From: Polyangium aurulentum
GTDB taxonomy: Bacteria; Myxococcota_A; Polyangia; Polyangiales; Polyangiaceae
Length of the DNA: 60,234 nt
Direction of reading: 5' to 3'
NCBI GenBank assembly: GCA_945875545.1
Contig: CAMCKZ010000007.1
Location: 1 to 60,234, forward strand
The translations under genes were made by a program, and so were the position numbers. Positions 52,148-60,234 of the stretch are shown in pieces. The notes under the pieces were generated by a model, which was given only the letters and a program-made list of their open reading frames with translations, was not told where the DNA came from and made no database searches. Position 1 is the stretch's first letter. Each line of letters begins with the position of its first letter.

Positions 52148-52421
52148 AGCCCACCCAGTAACCGCGTCGTCGCCCGAAGCAAGAAAAACCGCGCGCCGTC
52201 ATCGGTCGAGGTTAGCAGTCGCCAAAAAGGCCCCGATTGCCAGGAGTTTTAGCCCAAAAGAGCGCGAGCACCCAAGAGCGCCGGCCCGACCTGCGCCTCG
52301 ATGATGCCGCCGTGGCCTTCGAGGAAATCCTCCGGGAACACGCGCAATTTACTGCAATTTTCGCTACTAACTCTATGAGGGGATTCTTCGGGCTTGACCG
52401 TCATCAAGGCATCTTTCTGAT

Positions 52422-52921
52422 TCAGCCTTGCGCGTGCGTCAGCGCAATTCCGGGACCCGCCCGCATCTCGTCGCAGCGAAGATCCACGGCCACGGCCTTG
52501 GCGACGCCCGTCTCCGAGCCGCGCCACGACCTTCAACTGCGGGTAACGGGCCTTCCATACGAGCGCGTCTTGGCGATGAAAGCCGTTGGGTACAACGAAG
52601 TAGCGGAGGTTGCCAAATGCCTCAAGCTCCACCATTTCCCGCGGGATCGAGCGCAATCGCGTTGACGATTCCGAAGTCGCTGCGCTTGGCCACCACCATC
52701 TTGCGCTCCGTGCCCCGCGCCATCCGGCCCGACACGTACCAAACGTTCGGGTCAAGCTTGGCGGTCGGCTTGTTCTTCAGCGCGGCCCACCTTGTGAATC
52801 CTAGGCCATTTGCAGATCCTGGACCGCGGCAAGAGGCGGCGTCCGGCACCGTAGCACGTCGCGTTAACGGGCGCGGCCTCGCCGTTTTTCGTGACGCAGT
52901 GAGCCACTCGAGGTCACCCAA
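52422..52921 (-). pseudogene. frameshifted DUF4336-like gene
   Basis: Three frame segments read as one protein when joined: PNVWYVSGRMARGT (52622-52921 frame), then PREMVELEAFGNLRYFVVPNGFHR, then SETGVAKAVAVDL ending at TGA 52422-52424. The shifts lie near 52640-52655 and 52520-52545, each explained by one inserted or lost base. The VVPNxFH centre resembles DUF4336 (metallo-beta-lactamase-like) proteins. It could be a true pseudogene or two sequencing indels in GC-rich runs. Confidence 0.55.
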
Positions 52922-53063
52922 TAGCGCGAAATGATTGCGCCGGTGAGGCGATGTAAGCAGTTAGGGCATGCGAGGCTACACGTATGATTCCAATGAGTTA
53001 GAGACTGAACCGTCCGTCGCTTTTCGATGTCGTCGTATTGGGTCGCGCACAATGGTTATTGAC

Positions 53064-53069
53064 TTGACA
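53064..53069 (+). promoter_or_regulatory. candidate -35 box before the SRPBCC/KAS III/ThDP/P450 operon
   Basis: A perfect TTGACA sits 122 bp before the first ATG in an AT-richer segment. No good -10 is found 16-18 bp downstream, so the promoter is only tentative. Confidence 0.25.
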
Positions 53070-53190
53070 ATTGGTAAGTGGTAGCGGTGCGTCATTGGGT
53101 TTGCCGTCGGTGTTGCGAGGCGGGCCCCGGTCGTTTCTTCTGGCTTTTTGCCCGGGCGCTTTCGGCCCTCTTTTTCATCTTGGAGTCATC

Positions 53191-53814
53191 ATGAACATCA
53201 ATGAGATCGCGAACGTTCGCCGCTTCGAAAACTTTCCTAAAGACGACATGAACGCGCTCGCGCTGGACATGACCCACGCGGTCTACCCGCACGACGAAAT
53301 TTACGGTCCCTATTGCAGCCTCGAAGAGTACGTCGATTGCCCGCCCGACGAGGTTTTTAACTACCTCGCCGACGTACGCACCTTGGCCGAGTGGACGTAC
53401 TCGCTGCGCGACATCGAGCCGGTGAAAGACGACCTTTTCGTCTTCACCGACAAGATCGGCGGCAAGACCAAATGTTTCACCCGGGTTGAGTCGAATGCGC
53501 AGGCGCGCACCGTGGATTTTCACTGCGCGTGGGACCAAGGCGACCACCTTTGGATGATCTACTTGATGCGCGTGATTCCAGCGCAACTCCTGCTCAACAA
53601 GCCCGGCAGCGTCGTGCTGTGGACGAATTGCCACCACCCGTTTTACGACAAAAATCCGCGCCCTGAACTGTCGCCCGAGGGGCGCAAAGTGTGGGTCGGG
53701 GACATGTGGCCCTTTTTCTACGCCGGTCACGACGTGGAGATGAAAAACCTCAAGCACATCTGCGAAGCGCGCCACGCGATGGGCCTTCCGATCGTTCCCG
53801 CGGTGATCGCATGA
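53191..53814 (+). CDS. SRPBCC-fold protein (aromatase/cyclase or ligand-binding type)
   Basis: A 207-residue protein starting at an ATG seven bases after GGAG. The core pattern CSLEEYVDCPPDEVFNYLADVRTLAEWTYSL is a START/SRPBCC helix-grip opening, and strands with TVDFHCAWD and SVVLWTN follow. Such proteins bind or cyclise hydrophobic intermediates. It is the first gene of a four-gene operon; its TGA overlaps the next ATG. The 40 codons in frame upstream lack support. Confidence 0.78.
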   Translation: MNINEIANVRRFENFPKDDMNALALDMTHAVYPHDEIYGPYCSLEEYVDCPPDEVFNYLADVRTLAEWTYSLRDIEPVKDDLFVFTDKIGGKTKCFTRVESNAQARTVDFHCAWDQGDHLWMIYLMRVIPAQLLLNKPGSVVLWTNCHHPFYDKNPRPELSPEGRKVWVGDMWPFFYAGHDVEMKNLKHICEARHAMGLPIVPAVIA

Positions 53815-54809
53815 ACACCGCAATGAGCCTCATCGACACCGCGAGCGCAATGCCCGAGCGTGTCGTCGATAACGCGTTTTTCGGCCTGGATCCCTCGAAA
53901 ACGGGCTCGGCCATGTTCAAAGGCACCCGCGAGCGAAGGCACTTGGCGAAGGGCGAAACCGCCGCGTCGCTGATCGAAAAAGCCGCACGCACCCTCGGCG
54001 AACGCTTGAACCTGAACTTCGAGACCGACGTCGATCTGATTCTCACAAACGTCAGTTTGCCCGACTCGTGTTTCATGGGATGCGGCGCTTCCGTGTCGCG
54101 CGTTCTTGGCGCAAAGCCCAAATTCATCCTCGATCTTCATAACACGGGCTGTGTGTCATTTATCTACATGCTCGCGGTGGCCCGGGAGCTTATGGCTTCC
54201 GGTGCGGTAAAATCCGCCCTTTTGTGCTGCGCCCAGACCGCGGCGGGTCGTGTGTTTGCCCACGAAGAAAACCGCGTTCGTCCCCAATCGGCCGTGCCCG
54301 GCGACGGCTGCGGCGTAGGCTATATCGTCGCGAACGACGCCTCCCCGGTTCGCGCGGTCGTCCAGCGCTCGTACGGCGAGTACGCCGACGACATGGTCGG
54401 TGTCAGCGACGACAACTCCGACTACTGGGAGCCCCATCGGCAGGCGATGCACATCGATTTCACCGAGAGCAAGATCGCCTCGGTGGTCTCGCGCGGCAAC
54501 AGACTCGTGCCCGAGCTCGTGCGCGAAGCCTGCAAATTGGCTGAGATTCCTGCGTCGAAGATCGACGTGCTCGTCACCAATCAGCCCAACGTCAACTTTC
54601 TCCGCAACTGGCGCGAAGCCCTGCTCCTCCCTCCGGAAAAGCAGGTACATACGTTTGAGGAATATGGAAACATGTTCGGGGCTGCTATCCCCGTATCCCT
54701 CGAACGGGCGCGCCAAACGGGCCGCATCGCGAAGGGGCACACCGTGGCCCTCGGGGGCTTTTCGCACGCGGGCGACTACGCCGCAGCCGCCATCTGGCAG
54801 CCGAACTGA
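53811..54809 (+). CDS. KAS III-like (thiolase-fold) acyltransferase/condensing enzyme
   Basis: A 332-residue thiolase-fold enzyme. The nucleophile Cys114 lies in NTGCVSF. The final Asn is present in EYGNMFGAAIP (Asn287). The usual catalytic His motif (HQAN in FabH) reads TNQPN (256-260), so Asn257 replaces the histidine. Without that His, decarboxylative condensation would be impaired, and direct acyl transfer or a non-decarboxylative C-C step is more likely. It begins by ATGA overlap and ends 10 bp before the ThDP gene. Confidence 0.85.
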   Translation: MNTAMSLIDTASAMPERVVDNAFFGLDPSKTGSAMFKGTRERRHLAKGETAASLIEKAARTLGERLNLNFETDVDLILTNVSLPDSCFMGCGASVSRVLGAKPKFILDLHNTGCVSFIYMLAVARELMASGAVKSALLCCAQTAAGRVFAHEENRVRPQSAVPGDGCGVGYIVANDASPVRAVVQRSYGEYADDMVGVSDDNSDYWEPHRQAMHIDFTESKIASVVSRGNRLVPELVREACKLAEIPASKIDVLVTNQPNVNFLRNWREALLLPPEKQVHTFEEYGNMFGAAIPVSLERARQTGRIAKGHTVALGGFSHAGDYAAAAIWQPN

Positions 54810-54819
54810 GCGCGGGGCC

Positions 54820-56562
54820 ATGAAACTCGCCGACGCTTTGGTGCAGGGTTTTCTCACGCTTGGCGTTCGTCACGTGTTCGGCGTGAGCGGCGCCAACATT
54901 GAGCATTTGCACGACGCCATCTTTCGCCTTTCGAGCGATAAACTTCAAAGTGTGCTCGCCAAAACCGAAACCGGCGCGGCGTTCATGGCCGATGCGCAGG
55001 CCCGGGTACACGGCGTTTTGGGCGTGTGTTGCGCCACAAGCGGCGGCGGAATGATGAACCTCGCGGTCGGCATCGCCGAAAGTTTTCAAGCTTCGGTTCC
55101 CGTTCTTGCCATCGTTGGGCAGACGCCCACGAGCCTCGATGGCCGGGGCGCGTTTCAAGAATCTACTGGAATTGGCCGCACCGTTGATGCTCTCGGCCTG
55201 TGGCGTGCGATGTCAAAATTCGCCGCACGCATCGACGACGAGACCCAATTTTGGGCCGTGTTTCGCGACGCGCTTGCGGAAGCCCTTGGTGGTCGTCCGG
55301 GCCCTTCCGTGCTCCTCATTCCCCGCGACCTGTTTGACCGCGAAGTGGGCGAAATGCCCGACTGGTTTCCGCGATCCGTCGACGAACTGCGGGCAACCGT
55401 CGCGGTCGATGCGCTCGGGTATCACGGCCTCGTCGCGGCTCTTCGCAAAGCGAAAAATCCGGCCCTCGTCGTGGGGCCTGCTGCGGCCTCAAACGGGGCG
55501 ATCACGAACCTTCGCCGTTTCGCGGAAGCCACGCAAATTCCGGTCTTTACGACGATGGAGGCCGTGTCTTCCTTCCCACAAGAGCATCGCCTTTTTTCCG
55601 GTATCGTGGGTGCTGCGGGGCATCCGTCGGCGCACGCATTTCTCAACACCCAGGCCGATACGATTGTGGTCGTTGGTTCCGACCTCGGCGTCATGGTGCG
55701 CGGTGCGATTGCCCCGGGTCTCGAACGGGCGAAGACCATTTTGGTGCACCCGGAGCCAAGCGAAGTTGCGCGTGCGCTTCCGGCGCGGCTCGTGGTTCGC
55801 GGCGACAGCGAGGCCGTGTTCAAAAAACTCCTCGAAACGCACCGCGGTGAGCATTTTTCCTGGAGAGCGAGCGTTCCCGAGCTCACTCGTTTTGCGCCCA
55901 CGCTCGTCGAAGGCGAGCCCGACACGGCCGGATTGCTTCAAAGCGAAGCCATTGCGGTCCTCGATCAGTACCTTCCCGATGGCGCGCACGTCGTCGTCGA
56001 CGCGGGCAATTGCGCGGCGGCGGCGCTCCACGGCATGACACTTTCAGGGGTGTCCAGTGCCACAATCGCCCTCGGGATGGGCGGCATGGGTTACTCGCTG
56101 GCAGCCGCCGTCGGCGCGCAGTTATTGGCGGCACCCGGCGAGCGAACCGTGGTTATTTGCGGAGACGGAGCGTTCCTGATGCTCGGCCTCGAGGTTCATA
56201 CCGCAGTGGATTTGGGCCTGCCGATTCTCTTCGTTGTCTTCAATAATGCAGCACACGGAATGTGTGTTACGCGTCAGAACCTGCTCTTCGACGGGCGCCA
56301 CGAGGCGACCCGTTACGACCGTGTTTCGATTGCGACGACGGCGCGGGGTCTTGGGCCGGCGAATCGCCTTTGGGTCGGACGAGCAACCACGCGCGGCGAG
56401 ATGGCCCGCCTCACAGCCCAATACGACGCGCAAGGGCCGATGACCGGCGTGCTCGAACTCGTGCTCGAACGCGAGGAAATGCCGCCATTTGCCCCGTTTA
56501 TGAAGGCCGATGCCCAAGCGGTGAGCGTGCGTTCGGCGGCGTACGCGATGCCTGCGGAGTAA
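54820..56562 (+). CDS. thiamine-diphosphate-dependent enzyme (acetolactate synthase/decarboxylase type)
   Basis: A 580-residue enzyme of the AHAS/benzoylformate-decarboxylase fold. The cofactor-activating Glu is in KTETGAAFMADA near residue 50. The ThDP/magnesium motif is CGDGAFLML ending in the Asn pair VVFNNAAHGM. The central domain could bind a nucleotide but shows no clear FAD pocket. It would generate an acyl anion from a 2-oxoacid and join it to an acceptor to give an acyloin, or decarboxylate it. The start is the first ATG after the KAS III gene. Confidence 0.87.
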   Translation: MKLADALVQGFLTLGVRHVFGVSGANIEHLHDAIFRLSSDKLQSVLAKTETGAAFMADAQARVHGVLGVCCATSGGGMMNLAVGIAESFQASVPVLAIVGQTPTSLDGRGAFQESTGIGRTVDALGLWRAMSKFAARIDDETQFWAVFRDALAEALGGRPGPSVLLIPRDLFDREVGEMPDWFPRSVDELRATVAVDALGYHGLVAALRKAKNPALVVGPAAASNGAITNLRRFAEATQIPVFTTMEAVSSFPQEHRLFSGIVGAAGHPSAHAFLNTQADTIVVVGSDLGVMVRGAIAPGLERAKTILVHPEPSEVARALPARLVVRGDSEAVFKKLLETHRGEHFSWRASVPELTRFAPTLVEGEPDTAGLLQSEAIAVLDQYLPDGAHVVVDAGNCAAAALHGMTLSGVSSATIALGMGGMGYSLAAAVGAQLLAAPGERTVVICGDGAFLMLGLEVHTAVDLGLPILFVVFNNAAHGMCVTRQNLLFDGRHEATRYDRVSIATTARGLGPANRLWVGRATTRGEMARLTAQYDAQGPMTGVLELVLEREEMPPFAPFMKADAQAVSVRSAAYAMPAE

Positions 56563-56607
56563 CTGCACTATGCACGCATTATCAAACTTCGGGTGCCGGT
56601 GGCAGTC

Positions 56608-57960
56608 ATGACGGAGGTCGCGAAGTCTCCCCGCGCGTCGTCGCGTCGGGCGCTTCTCGATGCGGCGTCCCTCGCTTGGGACACGGAGGCGTTTTTTGCC
56701 GCGCGGCAAGCGGAGCTCGGCGACCCCTTTTGGATCGAACTGCCCGGGCTCGGGCCGGTGCTCGTGTCGGGCCACCCAGACGCGGCGCGCGAGCTTTTTT
56801 CCGCGCCTCCCGATACTTTTGTGCCGCTCCCGAACAATCCCGTGGAGCCGCTTTTGGGGTCGCACTCGGTGCTGCTGTTGTCCGGCGAGCGTCACAAAAA
56901 AGAGCGCAAGTTGATGGGCGCGCCGTTCAACGGCGATCGCATGCGCGCTTACGGCGAGATCATGTGCGAGCGCACCCGCGCGGCGATGGCGCCCATTTTG
57001 CCGCACAGCGCGTTCGACTTGCAGAAAGTGATGCAGCAGGTAGCGCTCGAGGTGATTCTTCACGCGGTGCTCGGCATGCGCGCCGATGACCGCGGACGTG
57101 CGATGCGCCAGGCTATTTCCTCGATGTTAGCAGCGTATGTGCCCGCTCTCCTCGTGGTGCCGGCCCTGCGTCGCGGGATGTTCGGAGCGGGGCCGTGGGA
57201 TCGTTTCACGAAGGCCCGTGACGCCTCCATGGCTCTCCTTCGCGCCGAAATTCGCCATCGACGCGACCAAGATCCGGACGACGCCGGCGACGATATTTTG
57301 AGCCTCCTCGTGCGCGCGCGTTACGACGATGGCTCCTTGTTGACCGACGACGAACTCGTCGACGAAGCGCGAACGCTCATTGTCGCGGGCCACGATACGA
57401 CGATGACTGCCTTGGTTTGGGCCGCGCGGTACACCCTCGCGACGCCTTCGACGCTCGCGGCGTTGAGCGCCGAGCTTATGCCCCATGGCCCAAGACCGTC
57501 CGCCGCAGTGCTTGCAGACCTCACGTATTTAGGTGCAATCTGCAACGAATCTCTTCGCCTGCATCCGGTGGTGCCCATCGTGCCTCGCCTCGCGGTCAAG
57601 GCATTTTCGTTTCGCGGTCAAGCACTTGAGGCCGGGCAAGCGGTGGCCCTTGCGACGACGCTTCTTCATCGCCACGAGCCCGAGTGGGCCGAACCGCATA
57701 CGTGGAAACCCGAGCGTTTTCTCACGGAAAAGTTCGGTCCGTTCGTCTTCGCTCCCTTCGGCGGTGGCGCGCGTCGCTGCATCGGCGCGGCATTCGGCGC
57801 GTACCAAATGCGCATGGTGCTCGGGACGTTTTTCGCCGGTGCGCACTACGAGCCGATTGCCGAGCCACCGCCGAGGCGAACCTTGGGCGGCATCACGATG
57901 GGACCGGCGACTTCGATTACGGTCATTCGCGGGCGCTCGCCTCAGGTGGATCTTCGTTAA
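56608..57960 (+). CDS. cytochrome P450
   Basis: A 450-residue P450. The I-helix has AGHDTTMTA, the K-helix ESLRLHP, and the heme loop is FAPFGGGARRCIGAAFG with the axial Cys. It is soluble, with no N-terminal membrane anchor, as in bacterial P450s. The ATG was preferred over a GTG 15 bases upstream. It likely hydroxylates or oxidatively tailors the product of the upstream three genes; no redox partner gene is adjacent. The dispersed palindrome occurs 34 bp before the start and again in GAICNES. Confidence 0.93.
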   Translation: MTEVAKSPRASSRRALLDAASLAWDTEAFFAARQAELGDPFWIELPGLGPVLVSGHPDAARELFSAPPDTFVPLPNNPVEPLLGSHSVLLLSGERHKKERKLMGAPFNGDRMRAYGEIMCERTRAAMAPILPHSAFDLQKVMQQVALEVILHAVLGMRADDRGRAMRQAISSMLAAYVPALLVVPALRRGMFGAGPWDRFTKARDASMALLRAEIRHRRDQDPDDAGDDILSLLVRARYDDGSLLTDDELVDEARTLIVAGHDTTMTALVWAARYTLATPSTLAALSAELMPHGPRPSAAVLADLTYLGAICNESLRLHPVVPIVPRLAVKAFSFRGQALEAGQAVALATTLLHRHEPEWAEPHTWKPERFLTEKFGPFVFAPFGGGARRCIGAAFGAYQMRMVLGTFFAGAHYEPIAEPPPRRTLGGITMGPATSITVIRGRSPQVDLR

Positions 57961-58065: not shown

Positions 58066-60129
58066 ATGGTCTTTCGCACGAGCACCGCTGTCGGTATGGG
58101 TGTCGCATGTTTCGCCTTCTTCGCGGCGTGCGACGACGGCGCAAGCACATCGAACCCGGGGCGGGTGAGCCAATATCCGGATGGCACCGCAGACGCGTCG
58201 CGAGACGCTTCGCTCGGCGCCGGTGAGGGTGGCGGGGTGATCATCACGGGCCCGGCCGAACCTCAGTCCCTCGCTGTCGATTGCGGTGCACCGCGGGTGA
58301 CCATGAGATTGGGAACACCGGCGCTCCTCGCGTGCATCCTCAAGGGCACGCTGCCCACGGGCACGACCGCGGTCTTCACGACGGAGGCCCAATGGACGGT
58401 CGACGACCTCACCGTTGCCGCGGTTACAGCGCCCGGCGAACTTCGCGCACACGGCACAAAAGGCGGAAAAATCCTCGTGACCGCGGTGCGTGGCGCGCTG
58501 CGTGCCTCCGCGACGGTCGACATCGATCTCCTCATCGCGCGCAATGCCGCGAACGTCACGCCGGCCGAATTGCAAATTCTTCAGAGTGGGGTTGTGGCTG
58601 CGTCAGGTGTTACGTGGGCTTACCCATATGATCGCACGGTATTTCCCCGTGGCCTGCCCGCGCCGAGCCTCATGTGGAACGGCGGCCCCGATGCGACGAC
58701 GATCTACATCGAGGCAAAGGCCGCGAACGCGCGTATCGAAAGCGTCGTCACGCGCGAGCGTGCGGGCAAGGCGGCGCTGGTCGAGGCCGATTGGCATGCG
58801 TTCGAGGAGAGCGCCGCGGGGGCCGTGAGCGTCACGGTGAAGGCCCTGGTCGCGGGCGCAGCGCAGGTGCTCGTCACGCAAACGTGGACGGTGGCACCCG
58901 GTTCACTCCGCGGCAGCGTGTACTATTGGGCCGCCAACGTGGGGCGCGTGTTGCGCATCAAGCCCGGGAGATCCGCGCCAGAAGATTTCGCCGCGGGGGC
59001 CCTCGGCACGAGCGGCGCATGCACCATCACCTGCCACACCGTGTCCGCCAATGGCTCAACGCTCTTGAGCGGCGGCGACACCCTCGGAGGGACGTATGAC
59101 CTTCGTACAGATACCGTATACCGTGATGTGGGTGGGAGTCCGGGCTCGAACGCGAAGCGCCGCTTCGCCTATGGCGGCGTGAGCGCAGACGGACGATTTG
59201 TGACAGAATCGTACGCGCCGTTTCCTGTTGGCTTTGCCGATGCGTCGGGCAGCGGCGGTCAGGGCGGGCTATTTTATGCCAATACCCTGCAAAAAATCCC
59301 GAATTCCGGCCTCGATGGGGTTCGTCTGGGCACGCCGTCGTTTTCCGCCGATGACCGCATGATAGCGTACATCGATTACTACATTTCGGGTGGGCAAAAT
59401 GCCAACACGGGCTCACTCAAGGTCATCGACTGGGACAGCTCGGTTCCTCGCGCCGCGAATCCGCGAACTCTGGTCACCAAGGGTGCCGGCGAGCCGATGC
59501 ACTACCCGTCGCTGAGCCCGGATCACGCGATGGTCGCCTACCACCGCGGCGGCCTGCGCACCGATGGCGGCAACAAGGGCAATCTTTACGCCGCTTTCAC
59601 GGCCACCGCCGGCAACGAAGTGCGCCTCGCGGCCGCGAACGGAGACGCCACGACGCTTCCCGGGGGAGCGCGCGATCGCGACTGGAACTTCGAGCCCACG
59701 TTTGCACCGCGTGCATCCGGCGGCTATTTGTGGGCTGTGTTTACATCGCGGCGCACCTTCGGCAACGAATTGACGCTGCCGGCGACCGAGGTCAAACAGC
59801 TCTGGGTCACGGCCATCGACGTCAACCCGCGGCCCGGCGTTGACCCGAGTCACCCGGCGTTTCGCTTGCCCGGCCAATCGGGATCTACCCTTAATCTCCG
59901 GGGTTTCTGGGCGCTCGACCCGTGCAAAAGCGATGGTCAGGGCTGCGGCGACGGCTCCGAATGTTGCGGCGGATTCTGCGCGCCTGGAGGCGATGCGGGC
60001 GCGCCCGTGTGCTCCTCGACTCCGCCCGCGTGCAGCCTCGACGGCGACCGTTGCAGCACGGACGCGGACTGTTGCACGCTGGGCACCCGGTGCATTGCGG
60101 GTGCGTGCAGCGCGCCGTCTCCGCGCTAG
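58066..60129 (+). CDS. large lipoprotein with a Cys-rich C-terminus
   Basis: A 687-residue protein with a signal peptide and lipobox FFAAC (about residue 22). Residues 75-170 resemble an Ig-like fold; the middle shows WD/TolB-like strands (YPSLSPDHAMVAYH; SFSADDRMIAYID). A ACTITCHT segment resembles a c-type heme site but has CxxxCH spacing. The last 60 residues carry two Cys-rich modules (GSECCGGFC and DADCCTLGTRC) like small disulfide knots. A surface protein is likely; function unknown. Confidence 0.7.
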   Translation: MVFRTSTAVGMGVACFAFFAACDDGASTSNPGRVSQYPDGTADASRDASLGAGEGGGVIITGPAEPQSLAVDCGAPRVTMRLGTPALLACILKGTLPTGTTAVFTTEAQWTVDDLTVAAVTAPGELRAHGTKGGKILVTAVRGALRASATVDIDLLIARNAANVTPAELQILQSGVVAASGVTWAYPYDRTVFPRGLPAPSLMWNGGPDATTIYIEAKAANARIESVVTRERAGKAALVEADWHAFEESAAGAVSVTVKALVAGAAQVLVTQTWTVAPGSLRGSVYYWAANVGRVLRIKPGRSAPEDFAAGALGTSGACTITCHTVSANGSTLLSGGDTLGGTYDLRTDTVYRDVGGSPGSNAKRRFAYGGVSADGRFVTESYAPFPVGFADASGSGGQGGLFYANTLQKIPNSGLDGVRLGTPSFSADDRMIAYIDYYISGGQNANTGSLKVIDWDSSVPRAANPRTLVTKGAGEPMHYPSLSPDHAMVAYHRGGLRTDGGNKGNLYAAFTATAGNEVRLAAANGDATTLPGGARDRDWNFEPTFAPRASGGYLWAVFTSRRTFGNELTLPATEVKQLWVTAIDVNPRPGVDPSHPAFRLPGQSGSTLNLRGFWALDPCKSDGQGCGDGSECCGGFCAPGGDAGAPVCSSTPPACSLDGDRCSTDADCCTLGTRCIAGACSAPSPR

Positions 60130-60200
60130 CGCCCTTTTCAGCGGCATAGACGCCGCTGCGGCTCACGCCGCCTCGCCTTCGGCTTCGGAAAAAGGGCGCT
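60128..60200. terminator. long hairpin structure after the terminal lipoprotein gene
   Basis: AGCGCCCTTTT (60128-60138) pairs with AAAAGGGCGCT (60190-60200), and the interior folds into smaller GC stems (GCGGC-N6-GCCGC, GCGGC-N4-GCCGC). Another hairpin GGGGC-TTC-GCCCC follows to the right. It begins at the stop codon and may terminate transcription or be an intergenic repeat element. Confidence 0.6.
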
Positions 60201-60234
60201 ATCTAGTCCCCGGGGCTTCGCCCCGACGCCGCTA

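Follow-up and report, generated by a model that had tools for sequence, protein, structure and literature searches.

A compact operon of Polyangium aurulentum with a predicted CqsB2-type cyclase, probably encoding a carbazole-type alkaloid pathway

Results

Organization of the operon

The window, i.e. the whole stretch of DNA analysed, comprises 60,234 nucleotides of contig CAMCKZ010000007.1 of P. aurulentum, whose genome is a 3.5-Mb draft. Four intact reading frames, coding for an SRPBCC protein, a KASIII-like acyltransferase, a ThDP enzyme and a cytochrome P450, form a tight operon on the plus strand between 53191 and 57960 (Table 1). The initial annotation had described four plus-strand genes with overlaps or small gaps, and the coordinates, the Pfam matches and the intact motifs bear this out. 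The SRPBCC and KASIII genes share a 4-bp ATGA overlap and the gap between the KASIII and ThDP genes is 10 bp. Two start codons can be considered for the P450, the ATG at 56608 and a GTG at 56593. Since the alignment with the same-genus orthologue begins at the Met encoded by the former, this is the most likely start, and it places the P450 about 45 bp from the ThDP gene.

Pfam confirmed the KASIII, the TPP N, M and C domains and the P450, while the SRPBCC protein gave a sub-threshold match only. The GDG...NN motif and Glu50 of the ThDP enzyme are intact, as are the FGGGARRCIG, ESLR and AGHDTT signatures of the P450. Carrier protein, PKS or NRPS genes do not adjoin the operon, in agreement with the initial annotation, and genes for a second KASIII, a transaminase or a pathway-specific ACP are likewise missing from its vicinity. 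PADLOC returned no matches.

Table 1. Features of the operon and of its upstream region.
Feature	Position	Strand	Basis
SRPBCC protein, predicted carbazole synthase (cyclase) of CqsB2/NzsI type, clade B, 207 aa	53191..53814	+	PDB phmmer, conserved residues, Foldseek
KASIII-like acyltransferase, predicted CqsB1/NzsJ role, clade B, 332 aa	53811..54809	+	Pfam PF08545/PF08541, alignment, tree, FabH-like fold
ThDP enzyme, 580 aa	54820..56562	+	Pfam, PDB matches BbmA/CsmA, 51% identity to Embleya protein, grouping with NzsH-type clade A
Cytochrome P450, putative tailoring hydroxylase, 450 aa	56608..57960	+	Pfam PF00067, heme-binding motif
Upstream patch, possible control region, 46 bp, 85% identity to the same-genus operon	53038..53083	+	blastn

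The region of about 1 kb upstream (52165-53190) consists of overlapping broken frames, possibly a decayed minus-strand gene, and Pfam matched nothing intact within it. A same-genus genome (G140) carries the operon at 82% DNA identity behind different upstream flanks (aconitase B), and in place of 52165-53190 it has unrelated DNA except for the conserved 46-bp patch, for which no consensus sigma-70 promoter was reported. The degradation of this region, from which the initial annotation had suggested acquisition, is thus upheld in that no intact Pfam-matching gene remains. Since the operon is shared and the upstream flanks differ, the data fit either acquisition or relocation.

The SRPBCC protein resembles the carbazole synthase CqsB2

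When the SRPBCC protein was searched against all PDB chains with phmmer, the only match was CqsB2 (6ipv, E 8e-52), with 88 of 188 aligned residues identical (47%). CqsB2 acts as carbazole synthase in the biosynthesis of carquinostatin, and Glu105, Tyr144, Tyr172, His206 and Glu209 have been proposed as its catalytic residues. In the alignment, neither the window protein nor any relative departs from CqsB2 at the latter four positions; in place of Glu105 the window protein has Asp, a conservative change. A Foldseek search with the AlphaFold model, which is moderate (pLDDT 69, six sequences), also returned 6ipv as the top match (E 5e-18, next best 1e-6); this result is not independent of the sequence search, since sequence similarity feeds the Foldseek score. 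The scytonemin cyclase ScyC was considered as an alternative and rejected, the NCBIfam ScyC equivalog score being 24 bits against a cut-off of 400. The predicted assignment of the protein as a CqsB2-type cyclase is well supported and would settle the class of the pathway, the expected product of such a cyclase being a tricyclic carbazole.

The three biosynthetic genes occur together

Relatives were gathered from a genome scan, from plasmid records and from genome sets of the phylum (379 genomes), the order (184) and a Bacteroidota order (249). The initial annotation had proposed a search for conserved co-occurrence, and the orthologues proved to be co-located: all three genes of the SRPBCC-KASIII-ThDP triad were present in 20 of the 20 loci whose contig runs past the cyclase gene; in one of these, on a Nocardia plasmid, the KASIII gene lies at a distance of 5 kb. 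These loci come from Myxococcota, Bacteroidota, cyanobacteria and actinobacterial plasmids, and such recurrence means that the arrangement is not due to chance. Among the 379 genomes of the phylum, all KASIIIs matching that of the window with E below 1e-100 are part of a triad (the next match is at 1e-28), so that no close relative was found outside one. Carriage is rare and patchy, with 7 of the 379 genomes of the phylum (a loose count including one weak match) and 8 of the 184 genomes of the order. Carbazole-type triads were seen on Tsukamurella, Nocardia and Rhodococcus plasmids (L015, L016, L017, L018 and L019), which suggests mobility of the cassette in Mycobacteriales.

The ThDP enzyme belongs to the carbazole-cluster type

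The best PDB matches of the ThDP enzyme were BbmA and CsmA, CybE-type enzymes which give alpha-hydroxy-beta-keto acids (PMC12395478; the printed BpmA is taken as BbmA). The enzyme shares 51% identity with its counterpart in a carbazole-type locus of Embleya, which has a cyclase clustering closely with CqsB2, and 50% with its homologue in Scytonema, earlier listed as a carrier of the carbazole triad (PMC7466098). Identity to the acetolactate-synthase-like paralogues of its own genome is only 28-29%. In the tree the enzyme falls outside these paralogues and groups with the triad enzymes of Embleya, cyanobacteria and large-genome myxobacteria (99/99); in these comparisons the Embleya and cyanobacterial loci stand in for the classical NzsJ, NzsH, CqsB1 and CqsB3. 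A housekeeping acetolactate synthase, an outcome that would have spoken against the initial annotation, is rejected both by the tree and by the NCBIfam AHAS scores, which do not exceed 269 bits where the cut-offs lie above 500.

Two clades of cyclase and KASIII, and a mosaic cassette

The cyclase and KASIII trees agree on a division into two clades. Clade A contains CqsB2, Embleya, the cyanobacteria and two myxobacteria with large genomes (G728, G711). Clade B, supported at 99-100%, contains the window, nine other Myxococcota (for one of which only the cyclase is known), two Bacteroidota and the Rhodococcus, Nocardia and Tsukamurella plasmids. The cyclase carries Asp at the position of Glu105 throughout clade B, and also in G711 of clade A. 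The clade B triad of G716, a large myxobacterial genome, lies on a single contig of 12.2 Mb (L046). The ThDP tree conflicts with the other two. The window-type Myxococcota, whose genes run in the order SRPBCC-KASIII-ThDP, have enzymes that fall with clade A (99/99), and the enzymes of the other clade B members (Rhodococcus, Bacteroidota, G670 and G716), which mostly show the order ThDP-SRPBCC-KASIII, form a separate group (99/97). The window cassette is thus of mosaic origin, its ThDP gene having a history of its own, which suggests that the acyloin-forming module is exchangeable.

The KASIII of clade B lacks the catalytic His

The KASIII has a FabH-like fold; both AlphaFold models of this study are moderate (pLDDT 70 and 69) and no active-site geometry is claimed from them. 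Of the classical Cys-His-Asn triad found in clade A and FabH, the window enzyme retains Cys114 and Asn287, but has Asn257 where the catalytic His is expected. The His is kept in clade A (THQPN) and replaced by Asn in all 14 clade B sequences (TNQPN). In addition, a one-residue insertion in clade B puts a His four residues ahead of the nucleophile (His110-Asn-x-Gly-Cys114). This His110 is absent from one Nocardia sequence of the clade, and a further extra His, His319, is conserved. A reciprocal swap of His and Asn between the HQPN and FSNGG positions was considered and dropped, as Embleya has His at both.

The catalytic His was kept in all of the next-best 25 myxobacterial KASIIIs checked. The window enzyme is only 27-31% identical to the clade A KASIIIs and 23% identical to the one other KASIII of its host genome, which has FabH-like motifs. 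Since the catalytic His is missing, the enzyme was classed as a variant belonging to clade B rather than as a member of the classical cassette, and its chemistry may differ. The replacement tracks the cyclase clade and not the type of the ThDP enzyme, which would suggest a role in acyl transfer and cyclisation. Split frames, reflecting decay or an assembly error, were observed for the KASIII of Rhodococcus oxybenzonivorans (L015, 12627-13609) and for the KASIII and ThDP enzyme of one Bacteroidota genome (L005, 6594-10987).

P450 and neighbouring genes

A P450 also follows the triad in the same-genus genome (84% identity to that of the window over the part present), in a genome of another family (G655, 54%) and in a Bacteroidota genome (L004, 44%); the best other P450 of the host genome is 26% identical. 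In G655 and the Bacteroidota genome a methyltransferase gene lies between the triad and the P450, the two proteins being 29% identical over most of their length. There is none at this position in the window and its same-genus counterpart. In three other Myxococcota (G221, G205, G295) a COMT-type O-methyltransferase (PF01596) directly follows the triad, and in the first two of them a class I/II aminotransferase also stands beside it. TrpB or aminotransferase genes occur near the triad on the Tsukamurella and Nocardia plasmids, and an amino-acid dehydrogenase gene neighbours that of Scytonema. These neighbours of the triad in the relatives would fit a route from tryptophan to a catechol.

The last 149 bases of the window (60086-60234) are identical to the first 149 of contig C116 (L062). 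About 40 of these bases belong to the unique end of the reading frame 58066-60129, and the rest to a repeat of about 108 bp, dispersed through the genome in about 20 copies, either full or partial. C116 probably continues the contig of the window. C116 carries a methyltransferase (L062 241-1185, minus strand) which is 32% identical to the G655 enzyme encoded between the ThDP and P450 genes. If the contigs join, it would lie about 2.4 kb past the P450 of the window on the opposite strand. It adjoins reading frames resembling surE and uvrA (named by eye). Because of these neighbours it was not accepted as the missing methyltransferase of the operon.

Discussion

Comparison with known systems

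The initial annotation had called the gene combination unexplained, but the CqsB1/CqsB2/CqsB3 (NzsJ/I/H) triad has already been characterised and homologues have been reported from Sorangium and Scytonema (PMC7466098). The carquinostatin pathway of Streptomyces exfoliatus (CqsB1/B2/B3) and the neocarazostatin pathway of Streptomyces sp. MA37 (NzsJ/I/H) use the same three enzyme types as the window, whose ThDP enzyme belongs to the NzsH group. The window differs from them in the separate, His-less KASIII clade, in the absence of a local ACP, KASIII pair, transaminase and prenyltransferase, in the other relatives of its attached P450 and in its phylum. The triads of Sorangium cellulosum and Scytonema tolypothrichoides (PMC7466098) reside in Gram-negative or cyanobacterial hosts and have a ThDP enzyme of the window's group. 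The Scytonema locus was recovered here (L007); its cyclase and KASIII, like those of G728 and G711, belong to clade A with its His, unlike those of the window. Myxobacterial carbazoles are known, namely the sorazolons of Sorangium, and Labilithrix luteola has been reported to give 9H-carbazole and 3-chloro-9H-carbazole.

Proposed pathway

The operon probably encodes a compact carbazole-type alkaloid pathway, which would lead from tryptophan-derived indole-pyruvate to a three-ring carbazole; we infer the substrates, the acyl donor, the P450 site and the product as follows. The ThDP enzyme would form an acyloin-type intermediate from 2-oxoacids. In the KASIII, Cys114 would then take up an acyl group supplied by primary metabolism, and the bound acyl would react with the decarboxylating beta-keto acid to give an unstable indole intermediate; this step is the least certain, because the catalytic His of the KASIII is replaced. 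The cyclase would close and aromatise ring A without a cofactor, yielding a catechol or ortho-quinone carbazole, and this step is the best supported, because the active-site residues of the cyclase are conserved. Finally, the P450 may oxidise the carbazole ring or an alkyl side chain, and in the related clusters a methyltransferase may cap the oxidised product. The acyl-ACP and the indole-pyruvate would come from genes elsewhere in the genome, which holds several distant aminotransferases.

Alternative readings

The initial annotation had envisaged an acyloin formed from a 2-oxoacid, acylated by the KASIII-like enzyme and then oxidised, by comparison with the xenocyloins of Xenorhabdus. Xenocyloins are made by a ThDP enzyme and a ketosynthase-like acyltransferase, as in the window, but no CqsB2-type cyclase is known from that pathway. 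The ThDP acyloin from 2-oxoacids, the acylation by KASIII and the oxidation by the P450 are retained in our scheme; the acylated acyloin as end product and the xenocyloin parallel find no support, since the SRPBCC protein is predicted to be a CqsB2-type cyclase. The type of the cyclase and of the ThDP enzyme, the KASIII as third member of the triad and the strict co-occurrence of all three argue for a carbazole-type operon. It is therefore quite improbable that the operon directs an acylated acyloin or furanolide pathway, of the xenocyloin or cyanobacterin kind, with the SRPBCC protein merely accessory. Carrier-free ThDP and KASIII pairs such as CybE/CybF are known, myxobacteria included, and the PDB neighbours of the ThDP enzyme are CybE-like. 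However, the furanolide enzymes (cyanobacterin, deoxyenhygrolides) use aromatic acyl-CoA to make a butenolide and handle an indole substrate very poorly (PMC12395478), and the furanolide cluster descriptions compared mention no SRPBCC gene. Furanolide loci combine the pair with an acyl-CoA ligase, but neither such a gene nor an ammonia lyase adjoins the operon, and a CqsB2 relative with conserved catalytic residues is present in every locus.

A different, carbazole-related indole-fused ring system deserves more weight, although we still consider it unlikely. The His-less KASIII could acylate otherwise (examples are O-acylation, a condensation without decarboxylation and the use of an uncommon acyl donor). 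The ring that the cyclase closes, or its substitution pattern, could likewise differ. The exchange of His for Asn and the insertion introducing His110 set clade B apart; this change follows the cyclase clade rather than the ThDP type and is accompanied by E105D in the cyclase, though one clade A cyclase shares the latter. Against this, no variation occurs at the other four cyclase residues, and the aminotransferase and catechol-type methyltransferase neighbours suit a catechol carbazole. That the operon is a decayed or inactive remnant is hardly credible: the upstream region is degraded and the KASIII frame is split in two relatives, but the four frames of the window are intact and their proteins match the same-genus orthologues at 84-93% identity, compared with about 82% for the DNA.

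Significance of clade B

The chemistry of the triad is already known, but the clade B form, judged by its sequences, appears to be new. No description of it was found in the open papers searched, which include few of the subscription journals. We tentatively suggest that clade B, spread over Myxococcota, Bacteroidota and the Rhodococcus, Nocardia and Tsukamurella plasmids, may be a second carbazole-forming machinery. Its KASIII would work without the classical His, using Cys-Asn-Asn with possible assistance from His110 or His319, and the resulting carbazoles would carry an acyl unit or substitution different from those of the Streptomyces compounds.

Carbazoles of bacterial origin are alkaloids with bioactivity, and Streptomyces is their main known source. 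Clade B would widen the range of likely producers to uncultured freshwater bacteria, Bacteroidota and Mycobacteriales plasmids, and it offers cassettes of three to five genes, small enough for expression in one step. It also poses a question of enzymology, namely how a KASIII devoid of the catalytic His may carry out a beta-keto acid condensation.
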